Position numbers and translations under genes: made by a program | Notes under the pieces: model-generated | The model's database searches: none | What the model was told of the DNA's origin: nothing | Seen by the model: only the letters and a program-made list of their open reading frames with translations | Assembly: GCF_000337915.1 (NCBI RefSeq) | Contig: NZ_AOJE01000020.1 | Coordinates: 63,418-113,338, forward strand | Direction: 5' to 3' | Length of the DNA stretch: 49,921 nt | Source: Halorubrum saccharovorum DSM 1137 | GTDB taxonomy: Archaea > Halobacteriota > Halobacteria > Halobacteriales > Haloferacaceae | In this document: positions 8,129-43,900 of the stretch, in pieces | Layout: each line of letters opens with the position of its first letter | How positions within the stretch are numbered: position 1 is the first letter of the stretch

Positions 8129-8175
8129 ATTGGCGACCCGCTATCGACCTTCCCTGCCGGCTGTCAGAGGTCAGC

Positions 8176-9141
8176 ATGGTAGAGAAAACGCAGGTTGCCC
8201 GGGGGAAGCGGATCCAGCGTCGGACCGGGAAGACGTTTCACGTCGCGACTCGGCTGCTTCCGGAGCGGATCCGTCACCCGACGTACGTGCTGTACGGCTT
8301 CTTCCGGATCGCCGACGAGGTCGTCGACGCCGCGGACACCGCGCCGCCGGACGAGCAGCGGGCGGAGCTCGACCGGCTCCGCAGGGCCGCGCTGGGCGAG
8401 GAAGCGACCGACGATCCGGTGTTGGAAGCGTTCGCCGCGGTCTGCGACGAGCACGGCATTCCCGATGCGGACGTGAACGCGTTCGTCGACGCGATGGCGA
8501 GCGACATCGACACGGACCGGTACGAGACCTACGAGCAGCTGGAGTCGTACATGGACGGCTCCGCGGCTGCCGTCGGCCGGATGATGACGGCGATCATGGA
8601 GCTCGACGGGGAGGCCGAGTCGAAGGCGCTCCCCCACGCGACGAAGCTCGGCGAGGCGTTCCAGATGACGAACTTCATCCGGGACGTGCGCGAGGACGTG
8701 GTCGAGCGCGACCGGGTGTACCTCCCGCTGGAGACGCTCCGTCGACACGGCGTGAGCGAGGATCAGCTCCTGAACCTGGAGTTCGACGCCGACGTGGCGG
8801 CCGCGATCCGCGAGGAGCTCGCCCGGACCGAACGGCTCTACGAGGAGGGGGTCGCCGGGATCAAGTACCTCCCCGAGGACTGCCAGCTCGCGGTGTTGCT
8901 CGCGGCGGTGCTGTACGCGGACCACCACCGGCTGATCCGGAACCTGGGGTACGACACGGTGTCGACGACGCCGGAGCTGTCGTTCACTCGCAAGATCTCG
9001 CTGCTCGTCCGGACCCGCTGGAAGTGGCAGTGGAACAAGGATCCCGAGGCGGTGTTCTACGAGATGTGCGGCGGCTTCGACGCCGGCCGCGACCACCGCG
9101 AGCACGGGCCGCACGGGCCGGGGATCGCCCAGTCCGACTGA
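8176..9141 (+). CDS. crtB: Phytoene synthase
   Basis: A 321-residue enzyme of the squalene/phytoene synthase family, expected to join two geranylgeranyl diphosphates into phytoene, the first committed step to C40 carotenoids and on to bacterioruberin and retinal. Both Asp-rich metal-diphosphate motifs are visible: DEVVD at 47-51 and NFIRDVREDVVERDRVYLP at about 166-184. The start MVEKTQVARGKRIQRRTGKT matches typical haloarchaeal enzymes, so I place it at 8176 rather than at the start of a longer Cys-rich extension. It probably has a leader of a few tens of nt. Next come a small membrane protein gene (17-nt gap) and hisD. Confidence 0.95.
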   Translation: MVEKTQVARGKRIQRRTGKTFHVATRLLPERIRHPTYVLYGFFRIADEVVDAADTAPPDEQRAELDRLRRAALGEEATDDPVLEAFAAVCDEHGIPDADVNAFVDAMASDIDTDRYETYEQLESYMDGSAAAVGRMMTAIMELDGEAESKALPHATKLGEAFQMTNFIRDVREDVVERDRVYLPLETLRRHGVSEDQLLNLEFDADVAAAIREELARTERLYEEGVAGIKYLPEDCQLAVLLAAVLYADHHRLIRNLGYDTVSTTPELSFTRKISLLVRTRWKWQWNKDPEAVFYEMCGGFDAGRDHREHGPHGPGIAQSD

Positions 9142-9158
9142 ATGGGAGGCGGGGAGAC

Positions 9159-9368
9159 GTGAACAGGTCCCGGTTCGTCGGTCTCGCTCTCGCCGCGTTC
9201 GGAATCGTCTTCCTGTCGTTCGTCGTCCGCGGGACGACTCGGCTCGTCGCGCCCTACGAGGTCGCCGTGGCGCTGTCGGCGCCGATCCTCTTCGCCGCCG
9301 CCGCGTTGTTGGTCGGGCTGGTCGCGCTCGCGACGCTGGACGCGACCGGGATCCGGCCGCTGGAGTGA
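9159..9368 (+). CDS. Small two-helix membrane protein
   Basis: A 69-residue hydrophobic protein with two predicted membrane helices (about 5-22 and 36-60) separated by RGTTRLVAPYE. The GTG at 9159 is chosen because a purine-rich GGAGGCGGGGAG (9145-9156) lies just upstream and the gene begins 17 nt after crtB, so it is likely co-transcribed. An ATG at 9142 is out of frame. I do not recognise the family. A role linked to carotenoid membranes would be speculation from position only. Confidence 0.65.
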   Translation: MNRSRFVGLALAAFGIVFLSFVVRGTTRLVAPYEVAVALSAPILFAAAALLVGLVALATLDATGIRPLE

Positions 9369-9432
9369 GCGGGGGGTTCGGCGCCGGGGCGAGAGTCGGA
9401 ACGCCCTTTTGACCGCGGCACCGAGTCCGGGT

Positions 9433-10710
9433 ATGGATGTACGAACCGTCGCCGACCTCTCGCCGGCCGAGCGCCGCGCCTTCTTCGAGCGCGACGCGGG
9501 CGTCGACGCGGTCCGCGACGACGTGAGCGAGATCGTCGGTCGGGTTCGCGAGGAGGGGGACGTGGCACTGCGGGAGTTCTCCGAGGAGTTCGACGGCGTG
9601 ACCGTCGGCAACATCGACGTGACGGACGACGCGGAGCGCGCGCACGCCGAGCTCGACGACGCGGGCGACCCGGTGCTCGACGCGGTCCGCGAGGCGGCCG
9701 CGAACATCCGCGCGTTCCACGAGCGACAGCGCCCCGAGGACTGGCGCGAGGCGTTCGGCGACCGCGAGCTCGGCCGCCGGTTCCGCCCGCTCGATCGGGC
9801 CGGGGTGTACGTGCCCGGCGGCGCGGCGGCGTACCCCTCCAGCGCGCTGATGGGCGTGATCCCGGCGACCGTGGCGGGCGTCGACCACGTCTCGGTCGCG
9901 ACCCCGCCCGCCGAGGAGCTGAACCCGGTGACGCTCGCGGCGATCCACGAGGCCGGCGCCGACGCGGTGTACCAGGTCGGCGGCGCGCAGGCGATCGGCG
10001 CGCTCGCGTACGGCACGGAGACCGTGACGAACGCGCAGAAGGTCGTGGGCCCCGGCAACAAGTGGGTCACCGCCGCGAAGGCGGTCGTGCAGGGCGACGT
10101 GGAGATCGACTTCCTCGCGGGGCCGAGCGAGGTGCTCGTGCTCGCCGACGGGGGGGCGGACCCCGACCTCGTCGCGGCCGACCTCGTGGCGCAGGCGGAG
10201 CACGACCCGAACGCCTCCGTGGTCGCGGTCACCGACGACGCGGACCTCGCTTCGGCGGTCGCCGAGGCGGTCGACGAGCAGGTCGCGGGCCGCGAGCGCG
10301 AGGAGACGATCCGGGCCGCCCTCGACAACGAGGCCTCCGGCGTGCTCCACGCGCGTTCGATGCCCGAGGCGGTGCTGTTCGCCGAGGAGTACGCGGCCGA
10401 GCACCTCTCGATCGTCGCCGACGACGACGAGGCGCTCCTCGATCGGATCTCGAACGCGGGCTCGGTGTTCCTCGGCCCGTACTCGCCCGTGGCCGCGGGC
10501 GACTACGCGACCGGGACGAACCACGTGCTTCCGACGAACGGCGGCGCGAAGCGCTACGGCGGGCTCTCGGTCGATACCTTCCTCCGGTCGTCGACGGTCC
10601 AGCGGCTCGACCGCGACGCGCTCGACGGGCTCTCCGACACGATCACGACGCTCGCGGAGGCCGAGGGGCTGGAGGCGCACGCGGAGAGCGTCCGGAAGCG
10701 GTTCGAGTAG
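9433..10710 (+). CDS. hisD: Histidinol dehydrogenase
   Basis: A 425-residue NAD- and zinc-dependent enzyme that oxidises L-histidinol twice to L-histidine, the last step of histidine synthesis. Family motifs are present in order: VYVPGGAAAYPSSALMGVIP, YQVGGAQAIGALAYGT, GPGNKWVTAAK, the signature DFLAGPSEVLVLAD, the zinc-region QAEHDP, AAEHLSI, and a late GPYSPVAAGDYATGTNHVLP. The ATG at 9433 follows CCCTTTTGACC (9404-9414) by 25 nt, suggesting its own leaderless promoter. No other his gene is in the window, as is usual for dispersed haloarchaeal his genes. Confidence 0.96.
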   Translation: MDVRTVADLSPAERRAFFERDAGVDAVRDDVSEIVGRVREEGDVALREFSEEFDGVTVGNIDVTDDAERAHAELDDAGDPVLDAVREAAANIRAFHERQRPEDWREAFGDRELGRRFRPLDRAGVYVPGGAAAYPSSALMGVIPATVAGVDHVSVATPPAEELNPVTLAAIHEAGADAVYQVGGAQAIGALAYGTETVTNAQKVVGPGNKWVTAAKAVVQGDVEIDFLAGPSEVLVLADGGADPDLVAADLVAQAEHDPNASVVAVTDDADLASAVAEAVDEQVAGREREETIRAALDNEASGVLHARSMPEAVLFAEEYAAEHLSIVADDDEALLDRISNAGSVFLGPYSPVAAGDYATGTNHVLPTNGGAKRYGGLSVDTFLRSSTVQRLDRDALDGLSDTITTLAEAEGLEAHAESVRKRFE

Positions 10711-10795
10711 CCGCGGTTCGGAAGATCCAGTCGTCGGCCGTCGGCAGGCACTCGCCGCAGAAACGGTTATCTCTCGCTGTCGCGTCTCAGGCGAC

Positions 10796-11950
10796 ATGAT
10801 TCCCTCCCTGCCCGCGTTGTTCGAAGGGCTCACCGCGGTCGAGGCGACGGTCGCGGTCCTCGCGGTCTCCGTCGTCGCCGCCCTCGGGATGGAGTTCGTC
10901 GTCCTGCGTGTCGCCCGCCGGTACGTCTCGGCCACCGACTCCGGGTACGACGACATCGTCATCTCCTCGCTTCGCGCGCCGCTCGTCGTCACCGCCGCGC
11001 TCGCCGGGGTGTTCGTCCTCACCCAGGTCCCCGCGATCCGATCGTCCGTCCTCGTCGACCCGCAGCTGCTCGACGACATCTTCGGTCGGCCGTCGCTGTC
11101 GGTCATCGTGCTGGTGTGGGCACACGCCGCGAACGGCGTCGTGAACCGGGTCGTCGCCGCCGTCAACGAGGAGGGCAGCCGGTTCGACTTCGCGCCCGTC
11201 TTCTCGAACGTCTGGACGCTCGCGGTCCTCGTCGGCAGCGCCGGGACGCTGCTGTGGCTGTGGGGCATCGAGATCACGCCGCTCCTTGGCGCCGCGGGGG
11301 TCGCCGGCATCGCGGTCGGCTTCGCCGCGAAGGACACGGTCGCGAACTTCTTCGGCGGCATCGCGCTGTACTTCGACGACACCTACAAGATCGGTGACTA
11401 CATCGTCCTCGACGACGGCACCGCGGGGACCGTGATCAAGGTCGGCGTGCGCTCGACGACGCTTCTCACCCGCGACGAGGTGCTGGTGACGGTTCCGAAC
11501 GCCGCGCTCAACGCCGCGAAGGTGACCAACGAGTCCGCGCCGCAGAGCCGGCGTCGCGTCCGCGTCCCGATCGGCGTCGCCTACGGGACCGACATCGACG
11601 CGTTCGAGGCGCTCGCGGTCGAGGTCGTGGGGGCGGAGCCGCTGGTCCTCGACTCCCCGAAGCCGCGGGCGCGGCTCCGCTCGTTCGGGGACTCTGCGCT
11701 GCAGTACGAGCTGCTCTGTTGGGTCAGGGGACCGACGCGACGGCGGCGCGCCCAACACGAGCTCAACCGCGCGCTGTACAAGGCGCTGGCCGCGGCCGAC
11801 ATCGAGATCCCCTACCCCAAGCGCGACGTGACGGTCACCGCCGCGGCCGACGGCCCCGATCCCGGCGTCGCCGACAGGCAAGCGGGCGCTCCGTCGCCCG
11901 CCGCCGACGAGCCGGCCGCGGCGGCGCGCGACGGCGACCGGGCGGGGTGA
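10796..11950 (+). CDS. MscS-family mechanosensitive channel
   Basis: A 384-residue membrane protein. N-terminal helices (about 15-38, 58-78, 95-118, 140-160) lead to the pore helix and the MscS signature GVAGIAVGFAAKDTVANFFGGI. A beta domain follows (FKIGDYI-like YKIGDYIVLDDGTAGTVIKV, then NAALNAAKVTN), then an alpha/beta cytoplasmic domain. The tail is Ala/Asp-rich. It should open under hypo-osmotic membrane tension and release solutes, relevant to a high-salt organism. CGGTTATCTC (10764-10773) lies 27 nt upstream. The precise MscS subgroup is not resolved. Confidence 0.92.
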   Translation: MIPSLPALFEGLTAVEATVAVLAVSVVAALGMEFVVLRVARRYVSATDSGYDDIVISSLRAPLVVTAALAGVFVLTQVPAIRSSVLVDPQLLDDIFGRPSLSVIVLVWAHAANGVVNRVVAAVNEEGSRFDFAPVFSNVWTLAVLVGSAGTLLWLWGIEITPLLGAAGVAGIAVGFAAKDTVANFFGGIALYFDDTYKIGDYIVLDDGTAGTVIKVGVRSTTLLTRDEVLVTVPNAALNAAKVTNESAPQSRRRVRVPIGVAYGTDIDAFEALAVEVVGAEPLVLDSPKPRARLRSFGDSALQYELLCWVRGPTRRRRAQHELNRALYKALAAADIEIPYPKRDVTVTAAADGPDPGVADRQAGAPSPAADEPAAAARDGDRAG

Positions 11951-13692: not shown

Positions 13693-15165
13693 ATGGTCGA
13701 CAGTGAATCCGATCACGAGACCGGACGTGTGGGGGTATCGCGGCGACAGTTCCTGGAGGCGACAGGCGCCGCTGGGGCGGCCGTCGGGCTCGCCGGCTGT
13801 TCCGGCGGCGGGGGCGGCGACGGGCCGATCCAGATTACGATGGACAGCGAGTGGGCGGGGATCTCCGACTCGGTCAGCCAGAGCCTCCACGACGCGGGGC
13901 TCGACGAGGAGATCGAGATCGAGATCCTGCCGGGCGACTTCGAGTCGGGCGCGCGCCGGTCCGAGTTCACCTCGGCGCTGGACGCCGGGCGGGCCAGCCC
14001 GGACATCTTCATGATGGACTCCGGGTGGACGATCCCGTTCATCGCGCGCGGCCAGCTCGTGAACCTGAGCGAGGAGCTCTCCTCCGAGACGCTCGATTAC
14101 GTCCAGAGCGACTACCTCGACAGCGCGGTGAGCACCGCGAGCGACCCGGGGAGCGGCGACCTGTTCGGGCTCCCGCTGTTCCCGGACTACCCGGTGATGC
14201 ACTACCGGAAGGACGTCGTCGAGGACGCCGGCTACGACCCCGAGGGCGAGAACTGGGCGACCGAGCCGATGAGCTGGCAGGAGTTCGCCGAGATGGCCGC
14301 CGACGTGTGGGAGCAGAACGGCGGTCCCGACGGCGACGGCTTCGACTACGGGTTCACCACCCAGGCCGACAACTACGTCGGGCTCGCCTGCTGTACGTTC
14401 AACGAGACGATGACCGCCTTCGGCGGCGCGTACTTCGGCGACCACGAGAACCTCTTCGGCCCGATCGGCGACCGGCCGATCACGGTCAACGAGGAGCCCG
14501 TCCACGACACGATCCGCATGATGCGGTCGTTCATGGAGGGGCCCGACGCGGAGTACGCCCACCCCGACTTCCCGCAGATCTCGACGACCGACCTGCTGTC
14601 GTTCACCGAAGAGCCGGCTCGCGAGCCGTTCACGTCCGGGAACGCGATCTTCATGCGCAACTGGCCGTACGCGATCCCGATCAACCTCGACTCCGACAGC
14701 TTCGACCCGGCGGACTACGACGTGATGCCGCTCCCGTACGGCGTCGAGGCGGGCGAGGGCGCCTACGAGGGAACCGGCGGCCCCGCCGGGGCGCTCGGCG
14801 GCTGGCACCTCACGATCAACCCGAACACCCAGCGGCTCGACGAGTGCGTTCAGGTGCTGGAGGCGTTCGCCAACGAGGAGGTCATGACGAGCAACTTCGC
14901 CGAGGGCGGGTACCTTCCGCCGGACCCGTCGGTGACCGAGTCGGTCGACCCCGACGACGTGGGGGCGCTCGGCGACTTCCTGGACACGCTCGCGGTCGCG
15001 GGCCAGAACACGGTCCCGCGCCCCGTCACCGTGGCGTGGCCCGACCAGAGCCCGCAGGTCGCCTCCGAGGTCTCGGCCGCCTACCAGGCCGATAAGTCGC
15101 CGGAGCAGGCCATGTCCGACCTGCAGAGCTCGCTCGAATCGATCGAGTCAGACCTGGCCGAGTAA
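13693..15165 (+). CDS. Sugar ABC transporter substrate-binding lipoprotein
   Basis: A 490-residue extracellular solute-binding protein of the MalE/UgpB (CUT1) class. A Tat motif (SRRQFLE, RR at 17-18) and lipobox LAGC (lipidated Cys36) precede a Gly linker, so it should be exported folded and lipid-anchored outside the membrane. Typical features follow: SPDIFMMDSGWTIPFIARGQL, GLPLFPDYPVMHYRKDVVE, MSWQEFAEMA and, late, ALGGWHLTINPNT. It is first in an operon with two permeases and an ATPase. The neighbouring GH68 and GH32 genes suggest sucrose or fructo-oligosaccharides as ligand; that is inference. Confidence 0.93.
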   Translation: MVDSESDHETGRVGVSRRQFLEATGAAGAAVGLAGCSGGGGGDGPIQITMDSEWAGISDSVSQSLHDAGLDEEIEIEILPGDFESGARRSEFTSALDAGRASPDIFMMDSGWTIPFIARGQLVNLSEELSSETLDYVQSDYLDSAVSTASDPGSGDLFGLPLFPDYPVMHYRKDVVEDAGYDPEGENWATEPMSWQEFAEMAADVWEQNGGPDGDGFDYGFTTQADNYVGLACCTFNETMTAFGGAYFGDHENLFGPIGDRPITVNEEPVHDTIRMMRSFMEGPDAEYAHPDFPQISTTDLLSFTEEPAREPFTSGNAIFMRNWPYAIPINLDSDSFDPADYDVMPLPYGVEAGEGAYEGTGGPAGALGGWHLTINPNTQRLDECVQVLEAFANEEVMTSNFAEGGYLPPDPSVTESVDPDDVGALGDFLDTLAVAGQNTVPRPVTVAWPDQSPQVASEVSAAYQADKSPEQAMSDLQSSLESIESDLAE

Positions 15166-15177
15166 CGAGGGCCGAGC

Positions 15178-16185
15178 ATGTCAACCGACACGCGAGCGGA
15201 CGAGGGGGGATCGCTGCTCGCCCGGCCGCTCAACTGGCTGGAGACGCAGAGCGAAGAGGTGTACGCCTACGTCCTGTTAGCTCCCGCGTTCCTGCTGCTC
15301 GCGGTCGTCGCCTTCTACCCGCTGATCGAGACGTTCCGGTTCTCGCTGCTCGCGGACGCGGTGGCGTCGGCGGATCCGTTCGGCGAGTTCATCGGCCTCG
15401 ACAACTACGTCGACCTGCTGACCGGCGACACGAACTTCACGCAGCAGTTCATCTCGGTATCGACTACGGACTCGTTCCCGTTCGTCGAGTTCGGGGCGCC
15501 GTTCCTCCAGCAGGCGCTGTTCGTCACGCTGGCGTTCGCGATACTGAGCGTCCTCTTCGAGACGCTGATCGGGTTCGGGCAGGCGCTCGTGCTCGATCAG
15601 GACTTCTACGGCCGCCGGTGGGTCCGGGTGTCGATCATCATCCCGTGGGCCATCCCCATCGTCATCCAGGGGATGATCTTCTTCCTCCTGTTCAACCCGA
15701 CCATCGGCTTCGGGACCGAGTTCATGCAGTGGCTCGGCGTGTTCGGCGACAACCCGCTGTCGAGCAGTTCGGACTCGTTCATGATCGTGTTGGTCGCCGA
15801 CATCTGGAAGACGACCGCGTTCATGGCGCTGCTCATCCTGGCGGGGCTCCAGAGCATCGACCGCGGGCTCTACGACGTGGCGAAGGTGTCGGGCGCCTCG
15901 CCGTGGCAGCGGTTCCGGTACATCACCCTGCCGCTCGTGGCGCCGGCGCTGCTCGTCGCGATGCTGTTCCGGACGATGGACGCGATGCGCATCTACGGGC
16001 TGATCGACGCCACGGCGGGCTGTGAGACCGTGCCGTCGCTGACCTGCCTCGTGATCATCGCGCTGCAGAACAGTCGGCGCTGGGCGACGGCCTCCGCGGT
16101 GGCGTTCCTGACTGCGGTCGTCATCAGCGCGTTCGTCGTGTTGTACCTGCTCGCGCTGCGCAACAGCGAGGGAGGTGTCGCATGA
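15178..16185 (+). CDS. Sugar ABC transporter permease, MalF type
   Basis: A 335-residue inner-membrane subunit with six or more helices. The ATPase-contacting EAA loop is YDVAKVSGASPWQRFRYITL, followed by PLVAPALLVAMLF. A large extracytoplasmic stretch lies between the first and second helices, as in MalF-type subunits. It starts 12 nt after the binding-protein gene, and its TGA overlaps the next ATG (ATGA at 16182-16185), so the two permeases are translationally coupled. Confidence 0.93.
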   Translation: MSTDTRADEGGSLLARPLNWLETQSEEVYAYVLLAPAFLLLAVVAFYPLIETFRFSLLADAVASADPFGEFIGLDNYVDLLTGDTNFTQQFISVSTTDSFPFVEFGAPFLQQALFVTLAFAILSVLFETLIGFGQALVLDQDFYGRRWVRVSIIIPWAIPIVIQGMIFFLLFNPTIGFGTEFMQWLGVFGDNPLSSSSDSFMIVLVADIWKTTAFMALLILAGLQSIDRGLYDVAKVSGASPWQRFRYITLPLVAPALLVAMLFRTMDAMRIYGLIDATAGCETVPSLTCLVIIALQNSRRWATASAVAFLTAVVISAFVVLYLLALRNSEGGVA

Positions 16186-17180
16186 GCGCCGACCCCACCG
16201 CCGACGAGTCGGCCGACGGGGACGACCCGACCGTCGAGATGGCGGAACAGGCGAAGGCGGACGAGCCCGAACTCGACCGCGGCCTCGTCGAGGCGTGGGC
16301 CGCGAAGATGATCTCCAACCCGGACCGCGCGTACCGGGCGACGTTCTACGTCGCGACGATATTCTTCCTCGTCACGACGCTGTTCCCGTTCTACTGGCTG
16401 CTCGTGGTCGCGCTGACACCGCGGAACAACCTCTCCGAGGTCGGCGTGTTCCTCCCGGCGGGGTTCAACCCGGCGGCGTTCATCGAGGTCTTCCAGACGC
16501 TGCCGTTCCACCGGTACGTGTTCAACAGCTTCCTGATCGCGACGATCGCGACCGTCGCGGTGCTGCTCGTCGGGAGCCTCGCCGGCTACGTGTTCGGTCG
16601 GCTCCGGTTCCGGGGACGCAACGCGATGCTGCTGTTGGTGCTCGTCACGTCCTTCTTCCCGCCGGCGGCGTTCTTCATCCCGCTGAACCGGCTGTTCAAC
16701 ACCAACGTCGACGTGTTGCGGCCGCTGATCTCGGCGGGGTCGCTGTACAACACCCCGTACGCGATCTTCATCCCGCTGTCGGCGATCTTCCTGCCGCTGT
16801 CGATCTTCATCCTGATGACGTTCTACTCGCAGATCCCCGACGGGCTGGAGGACGCGGCCCGCGTGGAGGGGACGACCCGACTCGGCGCGCTGTTCCGGGT
16901 CATCGTCCCGCTGTCGGCGCCGGGCGTCGCGACCGCCGGCGTGTTGACGTTCATCTCGGTGTACAACGAGTACTTCTTCAGCTCGCTGATGACCGACGGA
17001 CGGCCCGGGAGCTGGGCCCCGATGCTCGAAGGGATACTGCGGTTCCAGGGCGAGTTCGAGGTGCTGTACAACCTCATGGCGGCGGCCAGCATCGTCGCGG
17101 TGCTGCCGGTCGCCATCCTCGTCGTCGTCGCGCAGGAGAAGATCGTGAGCGGACTCACCACGGGGGCGGTCAAGGAGTAA
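16182..17180 (+). CDS. Sugar ABC transporter permease, MalG type
   Basis: A 332-residue inner-membrane subunit. After an acidic cytoplasmic N-terminus of about 55 residues come six predicted helices. The EAA loop is LEDAARVEGTTRLGALFRVI, followed by VPLSAPGVATAGVLTFI. It pairs with the upstream permease to form the channel. It ends just before the ATPase gene (2-nt gap). Confidence 0.93.
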   Translation: MSADPTADESADGDDPTVEMAEQAKADEPELDRGLVEAWAAKMISNPDRAYRATFYVATIFFLVTTLFPFYWLLVVALTPRNNLSEVGVFLPAGFNPAAFIEVFQTLPFHRYVFNSFLIATIATVAVLLVGSLAGYVFGRLRFRGRNAMLLLVLVTSFFPPAAFFIPLNRLFNTNVDVLRPLISAGSLYNTPYAIFIPLSAIFLPLSIFILMTFYSQIPDGLEDAARVEGTTRLGALFRVIVPLSAPGVATAGVLTFISVYNEYFFSSLMTDGRPGSWAPMLEGILRFQGEFEVLYNLMAAASIVAVLPVAILVVVAQEKIVSGLTTGAVKE

Positions 17181-17182
17181 CC

Positions 17183-18310
17183 ATGGCATCAGTCACACTA
17201 GAGGGAATCACGAAACGGTACGAGGACGTAACGGCAGTCGACGACATGAACCTAGAGATCGAGGACGGCGAGTTCGTCACCTTCGTCGGCCCCTCCGGGT
17301 GCGGGAAGTCGACCACGATGGAGACGATCGCCGGCCTCACGCTGCCCACCGAGGGCACTATCGAGATCGGCGGGCGCGACGTGACGAACCTCCCGCCGAA
17401 AGACCGGGGGATCTCCATGGTGTTCCAGAACATCGCGCTGTTCCCCCACATGGACGTGTACGACAACATCTCCTTCGGGCTCCGGCTCCGGAAGTACGAG
17501 CAGGAGGAGGTGGACCGGCGCGTCGAGGAGGCGGCCGACATCGTCCAGCTGGAGGGGATGATGGACCGGATGCCGAGCGAGATGTCCGGCGGGCAGCGCC
17601 AGCGGGTCGCGATCGCCCGCGCCATCGTCCGGAATCCGGACGCGTTCCTGATGGACGAGCCGCTGGCGAACCTCGACGCGGAGCTGCGGGTCCACATGCG
17701 CACCCAGCTCCAGCGGCTCCACCGCGAACTCGACACGACGATCATCTACGTCACCCACGACCAGGCGCAGGCGATGACGATGTCCGACCGGATCGCGGTG
17801 ATAAACAGCGGCGTCCTCCAGCAGGTGGCGCCGCCGCTGGAGTGTTACAACGAGCCCGCGAACCTGTTCGTCGCCGGCTTCATCGGGTCGCCCGCGATGA
17901 ACTTCATCGAAGGGGAAGTCGTGGACGACGGCTTCGAGTCCGTCTACACGCAGATCGACTTCGACCCGGAGACCCACGGCGTCTCGCCGGGCCAGGAGAT
18001 CACGGTCGGGATCCGCCCCGAGGACGTGTTCTTGGAGGCTGACTCCCGGAAGGCGGCCTCGCCGACGAAGGCGTTCGACGCCGTCGTCGACGTCATCGAG
18101 CCGATGGGGAAGGAGGTGAACGCCTACCTGCTGTTCGACCGCGACGTGGAGGCGAGCGCCGAGGGGCGCGGCGAGGGGCAGCTCCTCATCAACCTCGCGC
18201 CCGACACGGAGATCGCTGAGGGCGACGACATCCGGATCGTGATGGACCGCGAGAACGTCCACCTGTTCGACCGGGCGAGCGGCGACGCGATCACGCACTC
18301 ACTGGAGTGA
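17183..18310 (+). CDS. Sugar ABC transporter ATP-binding protein (MalK/UgpC type)
   Basis: A 375-residue cytoplasmic ATPase. Walker A GPSGCGKST lies at 36-44, the Q-loop is in MVFQNIALFPH, the signature MSGGQRQR starts at 134, Walker B FLMDEP is at 155-160, the D-loop is ANLDAEL and the switch His is in YVTHDQ. A C-terminal OB/TOBE regulatory domain (about 240-375, with ITVGIRPEDVFLE) marks the MalK/UgpC subgroup. The start at 17183, two bases after the permease stop, is the family-typical N-terminus; the longer frame upstream is a shadow of the permease. It probably powers all import by this operon. Confidence 0.95.
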   Translation: MASVTLEGITKRYEDVTAVDDMNLEIEDGEFVTFVGPSGCGKSTTMETIAGLTLPTEGTIEIGGRDVTNLPPKDRGISMVFQNIALFPHMDVYDNISFGLRLRKYEQEEVDRRVEEAADIVQLEGMMDRMPSEMSGGQRQRVAIARAIVRNPDAFLMDEPLANLDAELRVHMRTQLQRLHRELDTTIIYVTHDQAQAMTMSDRIAVINSGVLQQVAPPLECYNEPANLFVAGFIGSPAMNFIEGEVVDDGFESVYTQIDFDPETHGVSPGQEITVGIRPEDVFLEADSRKAASPTKAFDAVVDVIEPMGKEVNAYLLFDRDVEASAEGRGEGQLLINLAPDTEIAEGDDIRIVMDRENVHLFDRASGDAITHSLE

Positions 18311-18367: not shown

Positions 18368-19444
18368 TTATTCGACGCTCACGACCGTGATCCGGTGGGC
18401 CTCGACGGCCTCGACCATCGCGCCCCAGCCGCCGACCTCGACGGGGCCGTCGTCGGTCTCGACCACGAGGGCGACCCGACCGCCGTAGCTCGCGACGGTC
18501 TCGGCGGCCACGTCGTCGTCGCCGGTGACGATGACCTCGGAGAGGGGGCCTTCCACGACGCGGTCGGCACCGGTATCGGTGTCGGTCCCCTCGATCCGGA
18601 CACGGACCGTGTCGCCGTCCCGGAGGAGCGGGGCCACGTCGCGGACGCAGTACCGGATGTCGATGTAGTCGATCGGCGGATCGTCGTCGAGAGCGGTGTA
18701 GATCGGCTCCCAGGTGTCCCACTGGGTCGTGAGGAAGTACCAGTGGAACACGTAGGTGTGGGTGCGGTCGTCGACGAGTACGCCGTACTCGTTGGTCGAC
18801 CCGGCGTGGGGCGCGAAGCAGGTCCGCGTCCGGTCGACGATCACCACGAACGGGGAGGGGAGCCGGCGGTGGCGCGCCTCCGAGCAGACCTCGGCGAGGT
18901 CCTCCGCGTCGGGCAGCGACTCGGCGTCGCCGTTCGGCGTGTGGACGGAGAGGTTGACCCGGACGCCGTTCTCGGTTGCGGCCCGCAGCGCGGGGCGGAG
19001 CCGCTCGAAGTGCTCGACGCCGAGCGAGACGTTCACTTGCGTGTCGGCGTCGCGGATGAACTCGTCGGCGTTCTTGATCACCGTCTCAAAGCGGGTGACG
19101 ATGCTGACGGTGGACTGCTCGACGGAGGGCTCGTTCCAGCGCCGCTCGATCTCCTCGGTCGCCTCGGTGAACCGGTTCGCTCGCGTCCGGAGGTCCTCGG
19201 TGATCTCGTCGAGGCTGTTGGCGCGGGCGTACAGCGACTCCTGCTCGTAGGTCTCGATGTAGCCGGCGCTCTCCAGGTCGCGCAACACGTCGTAGATCCG
19301 GGGGTCAGGGACCCCGCTGGCGTCGGCGATCCGGGTGACCGGCGCGGAGCCGAGTTCGAGGACGGTCACGTAGGCGTCCGCCTGATACGGCGAGAGCCCC
19401 GCGTCCTCCAGGGTCTCGGTGAGTTCTTCGCGGTCCACCTTCAT
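18368..19444 (-). CDS. TrmB-family sugar-responsive transcription regulator
   Basis: A 358-residue cytoplasmic regulator. The N-terminal winged helix (about 1-75) contains LSPYQADAYVTVLELGSAPV and GVPDPRIYDVLRDLESAGYI, characteristic of TrmB. A short coiled coil (about 80-110) follows, then an effector-binding domain with HWYFLTTQWDTWEPIY, typical of the haloarchaeal TrmB subgroup. It faces the ABC operon tail-to-tail and the GH68 gene head-to-head, so it probably controls both in response to a sugar. No strong TATA lies within 30 nt of its ATG; the AT palindrome at 19601-19614 would give a leader of about 130 nt, or the start may lie elsewhere. Confidence 0.88.
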   Translation of the reverse strand: MKVDREELTETLEDAGLSPYQADAYVTVLELGSAPVTRIADASGVPDPRIYDVLRDLESAGYIETYEQESLYARANSLDEITEDLRTRANRFTEATEEIERRWNEPSVEQSTVSIVTRFETVIKNADEFIRDADTQVNVSLGVEHFERLRPALRAATENGVRVNLSVHTPNGDAESLPDAEDLAEVCSEARHRRLPSPFVVIVDRTRTCFAPHAGSTNEYGVLVDDRTHTYVFHWYFLTTQWDTWEPIYTALDDDPPIDYIDIRYCVRDVAPLLRDGDTVRVRIEGTDTDTGADRVVEGPLSEVIVTGDDDVAAETVASYGGRVALVVETDDGPVEVGGWGAMVEAVEAHRITVVSVE

Positions 19445-19693: not shown

Positions 19694-21154
19694 ATGCACG
19701 AGACGCCGGAGAGCGACGGCGGTCGCTCGCGGTCGCGGTGGACCAGAGCGCAGGCCGCGTCGATCGAGCGCCGCCACGGGAACGTCGCGCCGCCGGCGGG
19801 CGCTCCCGCGGCCGACCCGTTCCCGGAACTCCACGTCTGGGACACGTGGCTGCTCCGCGACCGACACGGCGATATCGCCGACGTGGGCGGGTACCGACTG
19901 GCGTTCTCGCTGACGGCACCGGCCGACTTACTCCCCGGGAAACGCCACGACGTGGCCGAGATACGGTGTTTCTACTCGCCGGACGGGAGGGAGTGGCGCG
20001 ACGCGGGTCCCGTGTTCGACGGCGGCGCGCTCGGCCAGCGCCAGTGGGCCGGCTCCGCGCTGTACGACGACGGGGAGGTCTACCTCTACTACACCGCCGC
20101 CGGCGACGAGACCGCCGACGAGATGACGTACACCCAGCGGATCGCGGTCGCGCACGGCGGAACGGTGCGCGCCGACGAAGGCGGGATCGAACTCTCCGGC
20201 CCGTGGACCCACGAGACGCTGCTGACGCCGGACGGCGAGTGGTACGAGACCGAGGCGCAGTCGCGCGGGATGACCTACACCTTCCGGGACCCGTGGTTCT
20301 TCGAGGACCCGGCGACCGGCGAGACGCACCTCCTGTTCGAGGCGAACGCGCCCGCGCCGGAGCGGGAGGGCGACGACCCGGCGACGGCGCACCGACGGGA
20401 GTTCAACGGCTGCGTCGGCGTCGCGGTCTCCGAGTCCGGCGACCCGCTCTCGTGGGAGCTCCGACCGCTTCTGCTGGACGCGGTCGAGGTCAATCAGGAA
20501 CTGGAGCGCCCGCACGTCGTCGTCGCCGACGGCCGCTACTACCTGTTCGTCTGCAGCCACGTCCACACGTTCGCGCCGGGCGTGACCGGTCCCGACGGGC
20601 TCTACGGGTTCGTCGCCGACGCGCTCGACGGCGAGTACCGCCCCCTGAACGGGTCGGGACTGGTCGCCACGAACCCGCCCGAGGCGCCGTTTCAGGCGTA
20701 CTCGTGGATGGCGTTCGCCCACGACGAGGAGGTGCTCGTCCAGAGCTTCCTCAACTACCACGACTTCGCGGGCGATTCGCTCGACGCGATCGCCGACCTC
20801 CCCGAGGCCGAGCAGCGCGAGCGGTTCGGCGGGACGCTCGCGCCGACGCTCCGGCTCGCGGTCGACGGCGACCGCACTCGGCTGCGCGGGACCCTCGACG
20901 CGTGGCGGATCCCCACCCCGGACGAGCCGCTGCCGCCGGCCGACGACTCGGAGCTTCCCGACGGCGACGCACTCGGGGGGCGAATCCGGGAAGGCGGGAG
21001 CGCCGGGGGGTACGTCGCGGGACCGAGCGGGGCTGTCGACGACGGGGCGGTCGACGACGGGATGATCGACGACGAGTCAGCCGACGGCGGAGGGGGCGAG
21101 TCGCTCCGCAACGCTGGATCCGGAGAGAGCGACGGTTCCCACGGCGCGATCTGA
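19694..21154 (+). CDS. GH68 fructansucrase (levansucrase/inulosucrase type)
   Basis: A 486-residue glycoside hydrolase family 68 enzyme expected to split sucrose and transfer fructose to water or a growing fructan. Catalytic motifs are in order: nucleophile Asp50 in HVWDTW, WAGSALYDDG (118-127), transition-state Asp199 in FRDPWFF, and acid/base candidate Glu271 in QELERPHVV. A five-bladed propeller of this length is normal. No signal peptide is visible at the N-terminus (MHETPESDGGRSRSRW), so it may be cytoplasmic or leave by an unrecognised route. The last 60 residues are an Asp/Gly low-complexity tail. GH68 enzymes are known from a few haloarchaea. Whether it makes levan or inulin cannot be read from sequence. 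Confidence 0.88.
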   Translation: MHETPESDGGRSRSRWTRAQAASIERRHGNVAPPAGAPAADPFPELHVWDTWLLRDRHGDIADVGGYRLAFSLTAPADLLPGKRHDVAEIRCFYSPDGREWRDAGPVFDGGALGQRQWAGSALYDDGEVYLYYTAAGDETADEMTYTQRIAVAHGGTVRADEGGIELSGPWTHETLLTPDGEWYETEAQSRGMTYTFRDPWFFEDPATGETHLLFEANAPAPEREGDDPATAHRREFNGCVGVAVSESGDPLSWELRPLLLDAVEVNQELERPHVVVADGRYYLFVCSHVHTFAPGVTGPDGLYGFVADALDGEYRPLNGSGLVATNPPEAPFQAYSWMAFAHDEEVLVQSFLNYHDFAGDSLDAIADLPEAEQRERFGGTLAPTLRLAVDGDRTRLRGTLDAWRIPTPDEPLPPADDSELPDGDALGGRIREGGSAGGYVAGPSGAVDDGAVDDGMIDDESADGGGGESLRNAGSGESDGSHGAI

Positions 21155-24145: not shown

Positions 24146-26467
24146 TCACTCCCCGCCGGTCGGCATCGCCTCGCCGAGCGCCCACGCCGACAGCGACGCG
24201 ATCTCCGCGCGACCGCCCTCGGCGCGCATGGAGACGCCGACCGCGTCGTCGCGGGTGGGGTACACCCGGCTCGTGAGACAGCGCCGCCCGTTCGCGTAGA
24301 TCTCGATCACGGAGCGGTCGAGGAAGACGCGCACGGAGAGCGGCTCGTCGTAGGGGGGGACCGCCATCGACTGTTCGTCGGCGAACGCGCGGGGGTCCAG
24401 ACTCGACGGGGCGCGGTCGACCGACAGCGTCCCGTCGCGCGCGTAGCGGATCGGAGTGCATTCGGCGCGATCCGGCGTCTCGAACACCGAGAGCTCGACC
24501 AGCTCGGCGTCGTCGAGCGCGATCTCTGCCCGGATCTCGATCGCCGCGCCCGAAAGGTCGAGCCGGCGGCGGTCGTCGGGCGCGAGAGATATCGCCTCGT
24601 CGGCGGCGATCCGCTCCGTCCGGAGGTCGGTCACCTCGTCGGCGGGGCGCTGGCGGAGGTCGCCGTCGGGGCCGGACTCGATCACGCGGGGCAGCGAGAG
24701 CGCGCCCGACCAGCCGGCGTCCCACTGCGCGTCCACGTCGCGAGCCTCGGGGAGCCACCCCCACGTGAGCGAGCGGCCGGCGCCGTCGTCCGCGTCGCCG
24801 TCGTCTCCGTCGTCGCCGTCGTCGCCGTCGACACCACCGCCGTCGGCGTCGCTCCCGCCCGCGTCCGTCAGCGACTGCGGCGCGTAGAAGTCGCCGTGGT
24901 CGAGCAGCCCCTCTGACTCGACCGCGAACTCCCCGTCCTCGACGCTCCCGAGGAAGTAGACGACGTTCTCGTAGTCGGAGACGTGGAGGAGCCGGCGGTC
25001 GCCTAAATCGAGCAGTTCGGGGCACTCCCACACCGCGGCGGCGTCGGGTCCCCCGGCGAGCAGGGGACCCTCGTAGGTCCACTCGGTGAGCGTCTCGGAG
25101 GTGTACAGCAGGGCCGCACCGCCGCCGTCGGCGAGACCCGTTCCGATGAGATGGTACCAGCGGCCGCCCTCGCGCCAGACGTTGTGGTCGCGGAACTCGG
25201 CGCGCCAGTGCTCGGTTTCGAGCACGTCGAGGTCGGCCGGCGGCGACTCGATGACGGGATTACCCCCGTGCTTCTCCCACGACCGAAGGTCGGGGTCGTC
25301 AGTCGTCGCGAGGCAGGGAAGCTGATCGCGGCCGTTGCCGCCGGTGTACAGCAGGGTCGGGGTGCCGTCGTCGTCGACCGCACAGCCCGACCAGCAGCCG
25401 TCGCGATCGGGGCCGTCCGGGGAGGGCGAGAGCGCGACCGGCTCGTCGCGCCACGTCACGAGGTCGTCGCTGACGGCGTGGCCCCAGTGGATCGTGTTGT
25501 GGAAGGGGCCGGCGGGGTTGTACTGGTAGAAGACGTGATACCGCCCGTCCCACCGGATCAAGCCGTTCGGGTCGTTCAGCCAGTTCGCGGGCGGCGTGAG
25601 GTGGTACTTGGGGCGGCCGCCGGGACCGTCCTCGCCGGCGGCGTCGACCCGGTCGCGGAGCCGGCGCATGTCGCCCGCGTCGGTCGGGCGCGCCGGCGTC
25701 CCGTGGTCGACCGCGACGCTCCGGAGGCAGCCCGCGACGAGGCGGTCGCGCGTCTCGGCGAGTCCCGTGGCGTCCGGGTCGCGGGGCTCGCCGTGGCCCC
25801 CGTGACCGTCGCCGCCCGGCGGGTCGGCGAACAGGACGGGCGCACCGAGCCCGACGATCGCACCTCCGCCCTCACCGCGCTCGTCGAGTTCGGCGGGCTC
25901 GGCGCGACCTCCGACCCGCCACGAAACGGCCGTCACCTCGTCCGGGACCGCGGTGTCGCCGCGGACCGTCGAGGCGAGCGCCTCGCCGCGCCGGGGGAGC
26001 ACGCGCTCGTACCCGACCGCCGGGACCGTGCCGCGGTCCCGGACGTGGTGCCGGAGCCCCTCCAGCGACGCCGTCGCCGGGTGGTCGGCGTACAGCGAGC
26101 GCCACAACACGCCGGTCGGTTCCGCGAGCGAGTCCTCGCCGACTCGGTCGGGCGGGACCGACTCCACAGAGAGGCGGTCGACCGACGCCATCGCGCGGAG
26201 CGTTAAGAGGAGGCCGCCGCCGTCGACGAGGTACGACTCGATCGTCTCGGCCGCGTCGCCGAGGGGGTCGCTCCCGGCAAGTGGCGCCGCGCGATGCCAC
26301 CAGAGCGCGTCGAAGTCGGTGGAGACGTCGCGGTCGCTGAGCCCGTCGAACGCGACCGTCTCGACCGCGATCCCGTCGCGCGCGGCCAGCCAATCGGCCG
26401 CGGCGCGCTGCTCCTCGGAGAAGTCCCCGTCGGTGAGCATCCCGACGCGGGACGGCGACGCCGTCAT
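24146..26467 (-). CDS. GH32 beta-fructosidase with N-terminal amidotransferase-like (ThuA-type) domain
   Basis: A 773-residue protein. Residues 1 to about 255 form an alpha/beta domain resembling ThuA/type 1 glutamine amidotransferase folds (DFDALWWHRAAPL, ETIESYLVDGGGLLLTLRAM). From about 286 it is a GH32 enzyme: nucleophile Asp299 in NWLNDPNG, FRDH at 425-428 (Asp427 the stabiliser, with His where Pro is usual), and acid/base Glu481 in WECPEL. A GH32C beta-sandwich with SVIEIYANGR closes it. An Asp/Gly insert (encoded near 24784-24870) interrupts the propeller. It should hydrolyse sucrose or fructans. No signal peptide is seen, so it is probably cytoplasmic. The ATG at 26467 is chosen over a TTG at 26494; GGTTTTGAC on the minus strand lies about 27 nt before it. 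Confidence 0.87.
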   Translation of the reverse strand: MTASPSRVGMLTDGDFSEEQRAAADWLAARDGIAVETVAFDGLSDRDVSTDFDALWWHRAAPLAGSDPLGDAAETIESYLVDGGGLLLTLRAMASVDRLSVESVPPDRVGEDSLAEPTGVLWRSLYADHPATASLEGLRHHVRDRGTVPAVGYERVLPRRGEALASTVRGDTAVPDEVTAVSWRVGGRAEPAELDERGEGGGAIVGLGAPVLFADPPGGDGHGGHGEPRDPDATGLAETRDRLVAGCLRSVAVDHGTPARPTDAGDMRRLRDRVDAAGEDGPGGRPKYHLTPPANWLNDPNGLIRWDGRYHVFYQYNPAGPFHNTIHWGHAVSDDLVTWRDEPVALSPSPDGPDRDGCWSGCAVDDDGTPTLLYTGGNGRDQLPCLATTDDPDLRSWEKHGGNPVIESPPADLDVLETEHWRAEFRDHNVWREGGRWYHLIGTGLADGGGAALLYTSETLTEWTYEGPLLAGGPDAAAVWECPELLDLGDRRLLHVSDYENVVYFLGSVEDGEFAVESEGLLDHGDFYAPQSLTDAGGSDADGGGVDGDDGDDGDDGDADDGAGRSLTWGWLPEARDVDAQWDAGWSGALSLPRVIESGPDGDLRQRPADEVTDLRTERIAADEAISLAPDDRRRLDLSGAAIEIRAEIALDDAELVELSVFETPDRAECTPIRYARDGTLSVDRAPSSLDPRAFADEQSMAVPPYDEPLSVRVFLDRSVIEIYANGRRCLTSRVYPTRDDAVGVSMRAEGGRAEIASLSAWALGEAMPTGGE

Positions 26468-40968: not shown

Positions 40969-43900
40969 ATGGCTCAGGCCGGGAATCAGGACCTCACGGA
41001 GCGGTTCATTCAGTTCTACCGTAACTACTACCGTGAGGAGATCGGACAGCTTGCGCAGCGATACCCCAACGAACAGCGCTCGCTGTACGTCGAGTACGAC
41101 GACCTCTACCAGTTCGACCGCGACCTCGCCGAGGACTTCCGCACGAAGCCGGAGCAGATGCGCGAGTACGCCGAGGAGGCGCTGCGGCTCTACGACCTCC
41201 CCGCAGACGTCAGCCTCGGGCGCGCGCACGTCCGGATCGAGAACCTCCCCGAAGGCATCGATATCCGTGGCATTCGGGTCCACGACGACCACATCGGAAA
41301 GCTCGTCTCGATCAAGGGCATCGTCCGCAAAGCGACCGACGTGCGTCCGAAGGTGACCGAGGCCGCCTTCGAGTGCCAGCGCTGCGGCACGATGACGTAC
41401 ATCCCCCAGAGCGACGGCGGCTTCCAGGAGCCCCACGAGTGCCAGGGGTGTGAGCGACAGGGGCCCTTCCGCGTCAACTTCGATCAGTCGGAGTTCATCG
41501 ACTCTCAGAAGCTCCGCATCCAAGAGTCCCCCGAGGGGCTCCGCGGCGGCGAGACCCCCCAGAGCATCGACGTCGACATCGTCGACGACATCACCGGCGA
41601 GGTGAGCCCCGGCGACCACGTCACCTGCGTCGGCGTCCTCCACATCGAGCAGGTCGAGCAGGGCAACGAGAAGTCCGCCATCTTCGACCTGTACATGGAC
41701 GGCGTCTCCATCGCCATCGAGGACGAGGAGTTCGAAGACATGGACATCACGGAGGCGGACAAACGCGAGATCATCGAGCTCTCCAACCGCGACGACATCT
41801 ACGACGCGATGGTCGACTCCATCGCGCCCGCCATCTACGGCTACGAGGAGGAGAAGCTCGCGATGATCCTCCAGCTGTTCTCCGGCGTCACCAAACACCT
41901 CCCCGACGGCTCGCGGATTCGGGGGGACCTGCATATGCTCCTTATTGGCGACCCTGGTACCGGAAAGTCACAGATGATCAGTTATGTAGAGAATATTGCT
42001 CCGAGATCAGTTTATACTTCGGGTAAGGGATCATCCGCTGCAGGGCTGTGTGTCACCGGCGATACGAAAATACACACTTCAGACGGGTTCGTACCGATCC
42101 GCGAGATCGCGACAGAGTACCATCCGAAACCGGTCGATGTGGAGACGAGTAGCACCGCAGAGCACGATCTCTACACCTTCGATCGAGCGTCTGGAAGGAT
42201 CGACCTCGCCGAGAGTTCCCACGTCTGGCGGATGCCGGAGAAGCCGTGTCGGCGAATCGAGACCGCGCACGGAAAGGATCTCGAAGCATCTGTCAACACG
42301 CCCGTCCTCGTCTGCGACGAGAACGGGATCGAGTGGAAGTCGATCTCGGACGTCGACGCTGGCGACCACATCGGGGTACCGAAGTACACCGACATCGATC
42401 GTTCGTCCCCACCAGTCGGTGAGTACGTCGAATTCACGGAGGAGAAGATCAAGCCGACGGCTGAATCGGTTGAGTTCCTTCGCGGCGAACTCACGGACGA
42501 GTTCGGAACGCTCCGCGACGCCGCGGCCGAACTCGGCCTTTCCGAGGACTTCGTGTACGACACGCTCTCAAACCGACACATACCACTCGATAAATTGGAC
42601 ACGGTTCTCGCAGCGATCGGTACCGCTATCGATGATATCGACATCGATCGTGTGATGCTTCGCCACGGCAGCGGTGTTACGATACCCGATGAGTTCGACG
42701 CGGATCTAATGTATTTGATCGGACTCGTCTTCGGCGACGGTGACGTGATGGTTTCCCGTCGTGGTGGAAATCGCGGTCACGTCCGTATCTCGAACTCCGA
42801 CGAGGAGCTGCTGGAACGTGCCGCAGACATCATCGAGACGAAGTTCGGCAAGTCTGTCGATATCGAGTATCAGGAGGATCGTGTCCCCTGTGTTCGCCTT
42901 CACAGTGCGACGGTTGCCCGTTTCTTCAGCAACGTCGGCGTCGAGTCGCCAAAAGACGATATCGCCCTCGATCCGAAGCTCACGACCGCCGAACACGCCG
43001 ACGCCTTCCTACGGGGCCTGTTCGACGCTGACGGATCCGTGTGTGGACGCGATAACGGCGGATCCAGCGTTCAGTTTTCGACCGTCTGTAGCGAACTCGC
43101 CGAGCAGGTTCAGCTGATGTTGGAAACGTACGGCGTACGGTCTCGGACACGCGAGCGCGATCGCCGCGGGACCTACGAACGTGCCGACGGCCACGAGATC
43201 GAGTCGACATCGGTTCAAACGCATCTAGCGATATATGGGAAAGAGGTCGATCGGTTTGCCGGCCAGATCGGATTCCGGTCGACGAACAAGTCCGGTGCGT
43301 TGGACAAAATTGTCAACGACGCACCTCGACGCGGCGAATTTCTGCCTATCGGAAGTACTCTCGCTCGTACCGATGGAGGCGCAGGTAAATACTGGCAGAA
43401 TCTGAACCGTGGCGAGGACCCGAGTCGCGAGCGGACTCTCTCGATGATCGATGACCTCGATCTCGGCGACGTTGGCCCCGACGTAGAGGAGGTAGCCAAC
43501 GCGGATCTCGTCTGGGACGAAGTCGTTGACACCGAGGACACCGGCGAGAAAGAGGTGTTCGACCTAACGGTTCCGGACACGCACAACTTCCTCGGGAACG
43601 GACTCGTGACACACAACACCGCTGCGGCCGTGAGAGACGACTTCGGCGACGGACAGCAGTGGTCGCTCGAAGCCGGGGCTCTCGTCCTCGCAGACAAGGG
43701 GATCGCCGCGGTCGACGAGCTGGACAAGATGGACTGCGTCACGGGCGACACCCTCGTCACGCTCGCCGACGGCCGCGTGGAACGGATCGACGAACTGGCG
43801 AGAGAGGCCGCCGAAGACGGCGAGATCGAGGAGCTCTCGAACGGTCGCCGCATCCGCGACGTCGACCTCGACGTCTGGTCGATGGACGAGGAGGGAGAGC

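Follow-up and report, generated by a model that had tools for sequence, protein, structure and literature searches.

The window analysed here, a stretch of 49,921 nucleotides from Halorubrum saccharovorum DSM 1137, carries an ABC importer, a TrmB-type sugar regulator, a GH68 gene, a zinc-ribbon protein, TetR, MatE, and a convergent GH32 gene in this order, with a spacing of ~4 kb between GH32 and GH68 (Table 1). The start of the GH32 gene was taken at an ATG (the mechanical ORF begins 9 codons earlier at a TTG), and this GH32 is the only one found in the window's genome. Elsewhere in the window, a 1869-residue frame at 40969-46578 (+) encodes a replicative helicase MCM with intein(s), with intein splicing, LAGLIDADG, and MCM domains, and a 1072-aa frame at 8164-11382 (-) gave no Pfam match at E 0.001.

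Table 1. Features of the GH32 gene and of the neighboring sugar genes (positions are those of the window).
Feature	Position	Strand	Remarks
ABC importer, whole	13693..18310	+	
ABC binding protein with Tat signal	13693-15165	+	
ABC permeases	15178-16185 and 16182-17180	+	
MalK-like ATPase	~17183 (inferred start) to 18310	+	
TrmB-type sugar regulator	18368..19444	-	
GH68 (levansucrase/inulosucrase family)	19694..21154	+	convergent with GH32 gene; signal peptide not obvious by eye
GH32 β-fructosidase with N-terminal DUF4960/ThuA-like domain	24146..26467	-	773 aa + stop
DUF4960-related, ThuA/GATase1-like N-terminal domain	25688..26467	-	~residues 1-260
WWH, residues 56-58	26294..26302	-	identical in 79/79 copies
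P106-D107, start of the loop holding N295 and W297 in BT1761	26147..26152	-	P 79/79, D 76/79
Y153	26009..26011	-	79/79
W183	25919..25921	-	79/79
Helix and linker before propeller, residues 261-284	25616..25687	-	P261 78/79, R271 79/79
Five-bladed GH32 propeller, residues 289-608	24644..25603	-	Pfam Glyco_hydro_32N
NDPNG with presumed nucleophile D299	25562..25576	-	invariant in 36/36 rows
FRDH (425-428), presumed stabilizer D427, H replacing P	25184..25195	-	alignment
ECPE (481-484) with presumed acid/base E481	25016..25027	-	alignment
Acidic low-complexity insert, residues 539-559	24791..24853	-	pLDDT <50
C-terminal GH32 β-sandwich, 612-762	24182..24634	-	Pfam

The catalytic part was identified by Glyco_hydro_32N (PF00251; E 2.8e-67, 227.9 bits) and Glyco_hydro_32C (PF08244; E 4.1e-24, 85.8 bits), both above the Pfam cut-offs. 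D299 (in WLNDPNG), D427, and E481 are invariant in 36/36 aligned homologs, and as in GH32 enzymes generally they would be the nucleophile, the transition-state stabilizer, and the acid/base, respectively. A proline after the stabilizer aspartate (RDP) is usual in this family, although not needed for membership; the window enzyme has FRDH at this site and retains the aspartate itself. The best structural match of the GH32 part was the Thermotoga maritima invertase (1uyp, Z 44.3), while the endo-levanase BT1760 reached a Z of at most 32.5. The propeller, the sandwich, and the D/D/E triad are common to the window enzyme, this β-fructosidase, and the GH32 invertases, but the T. maritima enzyme is a 432-residue chain with no N-terminal domain and presumably carries FRDP instead of FRDH. 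ARAGORN predicted a tRNA-Val(gac) at 24464-24545 (-), within the C-terminal GH32 domain, which is probably a false positive.

The initial annotation described about 255 residues of α/β fold ahead of the propeller, and this was borne out by the Pfam limits, which leave ~1-260 and a linker, and by the model of residues 1-282 alone with a 36-row alignment (mean pLDDT 87.2, pTM 0.85). The ThuA/amidotransferase-like character that it gave to this fold was likewise confirmed by matches to ThuA-like and class I amidotransferase folds, but the closest relative is a more specific one. A phmmer search of the PDB with the window domain alone recovered one protein in two sequence versions, the levan surface glycan-binding protein (SGBP) 8a9y/8aa2 (8a9y_T, E 1.1e-6), and the 36-row profile against solved structures matched the same protein at E ~2e-13, the next match being at 0.59. 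On the predicted fold, Foldseek ranked the DUF4960 domain of the levan SGBP first (E 1.8e-11), and VIA-align also placed this solved member of the family first (8aa2_G, Z 22.4, 219 residues aligned, rmsd 3.0), ahead of ThuA 1t0b (Z 17.8), other ThuA-like proteins (16.5), and amidotransferases (at most 15.7) among the best 50. Pfam DUF4960 (PF16324) at E up to 1 matched 35 of 36 domain copies and ThuA matched 8, the window copy giving no match to Pfam ThuA at E up to 1. Because the DUF4960 score of the window copy, 20.4 bits, lies below the curated cut-off of 29.2 (the best copies reach up to 51.5 bits), we class its domain as DUF4960-related and not as a member; its identity as a relative of the levan-binding DUF4960 domain is well supported.

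The C-terminal DUF4960 domain of BT1761 (SGBP-lev), the closest solved domain in both sequence and predicted fold, also works beside a GH32 enzyme. It is reported to bind levan as part of a separate protein of the Bacteroides levan utilisome, to resemble ThuA 1T0B by DALI, and to depend on W297 and W359 for levan as judged by ITC (PMC7618045). Another DUF4960 domain was reported to bind levan in Lev-Lev5, a Prevotella-like protein from a human gut metagenome with an apparent affinity of 10-20 nM, whose likeness to the archaeal domain lies in the DUF4960 family and the Rossmann-like/flavodoxin-like fold; the same report states, as a bare count, that 5 of 103 Pfam DUF4960 sequences carry GH32 domains (PMC10076258). 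The haloarchaeal arrangement differs from that of SGBP-lev, where the domain sits in a separate surface lipoprotein and the partner is an endo-levanase; the archaeal domain is fused to GH32, and the catalytic part is invertase-like. In Bacteroides finegoldii, the two are again separate neighbor genes, in contrast to the haloarchaeal fusion: within a SusC-SusD locus, 28 bp separate the DUF4960 gene from the GH32 gene that follows it. The ThuA-like proteins (1t0b, 4pxy, and 4e5v; Z 14.7-17.8) were solved as separate proteins and are less similar to the N-domain than the levan domain. GH42 β-galactosidases likewise hold an amidotransferase-like domain within a glycoside hydrolase, but this middle domain comes after the barrel (aligned range 395-613 in 5xb7) and is a weaker match than the levan domain.

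With a purpose-made profile for the N-domain, 141 of 382 haloarchaeal genomes, belonging to 39 of 85 genera, gave a match. Pfam DUF4960 gave matches in 81 of these 382 genomes (55 over the cut-off), PF00251 gave matches in 160 of 391 genomes, and a phylum-wide draw yielded DUF4960 in 15 of 392 genomes, all inside the window's order. The fusion, which had been called unusual, is so among GH32 at large, but within one branch of the haloarchaeal GH32s it is the norm. Among the fetched haloarchaeal proteins, FRDH was found in all 80 distinct domain-bearing GH32s (84 before four loci fetched twice or with an identical GH32 were merged; two of the 80 have the domain only in part or split) and FRDP in all 13 domain-less ones (excluding three GH32 fragments that lack the motif region), with L001, L002, L039, L053, and L129 skipped as repeats. 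Every FRDH enzyme among the 80 distinct sequences had the N-domain, in full or in part. In a tree of 59 GH32 rows, 36 domain-bearing rows fell on one side of a branch with a support of 98/97; the tree was midpoint-rooted, and they form one clade if the root lies elsewhere. The proposal that FRDH marks a subgroup thus stands. Of the domain-less rows, eleven make a separate group whose nearest neighbors are the enzymes of Salinibacter and Bacteroides, and another five sit next to the domain-bearing group, four of them as one long-branched set consisting mostly of tandem repeats. The seven bacterial GH32s in the tree, which are few and plasmid-derived, comprise six with FRDP and one without a readable motif. 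The simplest account is a single fusion and a single motif change on one branch. Because both lie on the same branch, it cannot be argued that FRDH is functionally coupled to the N-domain.

Several other arrangements were seen in these collections. Three haloarchaeal frames (L070, L071, and L073), from 1271 (start cut off) to 1422 aa, hold two tandem GH32 domains, the first without the NDPN or EC motif and the second with both. In the genome G111, which includes L072 and L073, GH32 matched five times; four of these matches fall on one contig in a span of ~27 kb, and that contig also has GH68 matches. At L140, L141, and L142, the N-domain and GH32 are split between frames or broken into pieces, or much of GH32 is missing, and these loci are either pseudogenes or sequencing errors. 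A 195-residue frame (L076:2978) holds the first half of the N-domain only, no GH32 being found in the retrieved stretch. Among plasmids, the window domain as query matched six records, all with haloarchaeal genus names, and a BT1761 fragment matched three, one from Bacteroides and two haloarchaeal. The N-domain search of viral contigs gave 15 pattern matches, none confirmed, and the BT1761 fragment against genome contigs gave 103, again none confirmed, although a search by exact 8-mer patterns says little on absence.

The GH32 gene is often linked to GH68. Among the matches listed, GH68 lies no more than 15 kb from 113 of 140 GH32 frames of at least 665 aa (99 within 3 kb), and 110 of these 113 neighbors are on the strand opposite to GH32; the N-domain is absent from at least four of these 140. 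Shorter GH32 frames, among the matches listed, had GH68 within 15 kb in 1 of 11 cases, and this lone frame is cut by a contig end and still holds part of the N-domain. On pHTUR01 of Haloterrigena turkmenica, TrmB, GH68, a binding protein, GH32, two permeases, and an ATPase lie side by side, and GH32 and GH68 are convergent in Natronorubrum aibiense as well.

Judging from the scan for Tat patterns, the domain-bearing GH32s are probably cytosolic. Among 68 domain-bearing rows, counted with repeats, a single one has a Tat-like pattern, and it lies upstream of the likely start; among 13 domain-less GH32s the pattern was found in 6, three more show RR and a hydrophobic stretch by eye (9/13), and one of the remaining four is truncated at its start. 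Hydrophobicity exceeded 1.2 in 14 of 68 domain-bearing rows (highest, 1.99) versus 7 of 14 domain-less rows, a measure that separated the groups poorly. By a similar scan, 17 of 22 GH68 rows were leaderless, the other five having a Tat or hydrophobic start (two of them are the same Haloterrigena gene); near domain-bearing GH32s, 16 of 17 distinct GH68 genes were leaderless, the exception being that of Haloterrigena. For the Halomicrobium GH68, SignalP was reported to give no signal and PRED-TAT to predict one, and inulin was purified from the medium (PMC8066391). Growth on external levan or inulin has been reported for some haloarchaea and was credited by the authors to GH32 and GH68 genes (PMC9726719). 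Because the location comes from scans, the GH68 signal predictions conflict, and haloarchaea grow on levan or inulin, the cytosolic setting is what we infer.

Eleven residues of the N-domain side (W56, W57, H58, P106, G119, Y153, P158, W183, G206, G208, and R271) are identical in 79/79 aligned copies, from which L056, L065, L079, L080, and L109 were left out as repeats or partial. W56, H58, the GG pair, and P106 are also common to all ten rows of the alignment with the Bacteroides domain. The levan-binding residues are another matter, as far as the alignments tell. At the BT1761 W297 position, the archaeal copies have, in the sequence alignment only, T, V, or A after P106, then G, or a gap; 17 of the 79 copies have a tryptophan at the next residue, column 111, where the window has E. 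The Trp-rich stretch of B. finegoldii DUF4960, the expected W359 site (the W359 letters of BT1761 itself being unseen), is absent in 8/8 aligned archaeal copies, and the W359 region thus appears to be missing. With W297 out of place, a direct carry-over of levan binding is not supported, and therefore the ligand may differ, it may be held otherwise, or binding may have been lost.

The N-domain is under purifying selection and is no remnant. In 16 close pairs its dN/dS was 0.08-0.52 (0.05-0.26 for the GH32 part), all values being below 1, and it was above the GH32 part in 14 pairs and below in two. A decaying module is in keeping with the faster evolution of the N-domain in three window pairs (0.31-0.52 vs 0.15-0.17) and with the frameshifted or deleted copies of a few genomes, but the dN/dS values, the eleven invariant residues, and the 0/80 FRDH enzymes fully without the domain speak against it, and we reject this reading, which we regard as hardly credible, for the sequence constraint on the domain. 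Nor is the domain a decayed relic in all haloarchaeal GH32s, the outcome that would have undone the initial annotation: the 13 FRDP GH32s showed no such domain, and it is constrained where present. A second active site, also suggested there, would suit a fold superfamily with many enzymes, such as ThuA- or amidotransferase-like hydrolases. However, no conserved cysteine, the class I glutamine amidotransferase nucleophile, was found in the 79 copies (36/79 in the Cys-richest column), the elbow column 89 is T in 42, S in 34, and G in 3, column 91 is variable, and the nearest fold relative binds rather than cuts. We consider a second enzyme very improbable and reject such a site for want of a conserved nucleophile.

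Sugar binding, the other role suggested for the domain, is plausible, because the closest solved domain binds levan. We favor, at a probability of roughly 0.45, a probably cytosolic β-fructosidase whose non-catalytic, DUF4960-derived N-domain recognizes a fructosyl ligand and assists the propeller; both the ligand and the location of this enzyme are what we infer. Sucrose or short fructans would enter via the ABC importer or be made by the neighboring GH68. The N-domain would recognize the fructosyl ligand (a fructo-oligosaccharide or sucrose) near W56-W57-H58, P106-D107, Y153, and W183, and would hold it close to the GH32 propeller or signal it there, and the propeller, of the sucrose/fructo-oligosaccharide type, would then cut off fructose. 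The enzyme would correspond to the DUF4960 and GH32 pair of Bacteroides, but linked in cis, in the cytosol, and with a changed binding site.

Nearly as likely as fructosyl recognition is a structural or oligomerization role, in which ligand binding was lost and the N-domain serves as a scaffold like the GATase-like middle domain of GH42 (the 'trimerisation domain' of Pfam). The fold matches include GH42 enzymes (5xb7, Z 14.3; 4oif), and Glyco_hydro_42M matched 1 of 36 copies, but this match is weak (E 0.19) and the levan SGBP domain stands well above the GH42 row (Z 22.4). Among the matches listed, the N-domain almost always shares a frame with GH32, which fits a scaffold equally, and only one domain frame is shorter than 690 aa (G263, 248 aa), still with a partial GH32 downstream. 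The full-length model (pTM 0.89) suggests a fixed mutual position of the domains, and the lack of a tryptophan at the W297 position points the same way. Against it, the invariant residues include several with aromatic or polar side chains (W, W, H, Y, and W), some at the BT1761 ligand loop, although they could serve the fold or a domain contact instead of a ligand. It is unlikely, in our judgment, that the domain is an allosteric sensor of a non-fructan metabolite such as a sugar phosphate; the probable cytosolic setting, the altered pocket loop, the conserved H58 and D107, and the nearby TrmB sugar regulator agree with such a sensor, but no direct sign of such a ligand appeared in these analyses.

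The DUF4960 domain, the GH32 enzyme, and even their co-occurrence are already known. In the open-licence literature (titles and starts of abstracts), no description was found of the haloarchaeal domain-bearing group, its FRDH mark, the Tat absence, or the GH68 linkage, and nothing relevant was found on an archaeal GH32 and ThuA architecture. The fructosyl-recognition reading offers a hypothetical function for an unannotated domain on the sole GH32 found in the window's genome, and joins the levan-catching domain of gut Bacteroides with the little-studied sucrose and fructan metabolism of haloarchaea. It raises the question of why an apparently cytosolic enzyme, often beside an apparently leaderless fructan synthase, retains a domain of polymer-binding descent. 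As a speculation that we think improbable but worth stating, there may be a haloarchaeal cytosolic fructan cycle, in which a leaderless GH68 makes an inulin- or levan-type store or osmolyte from imported sucrose and the DUF4960-GH32 enzyme senses and mobilizes it. If this were true, the N-domain would sense fructan inside the cell, in cis with the hydrolase to which it is fused.
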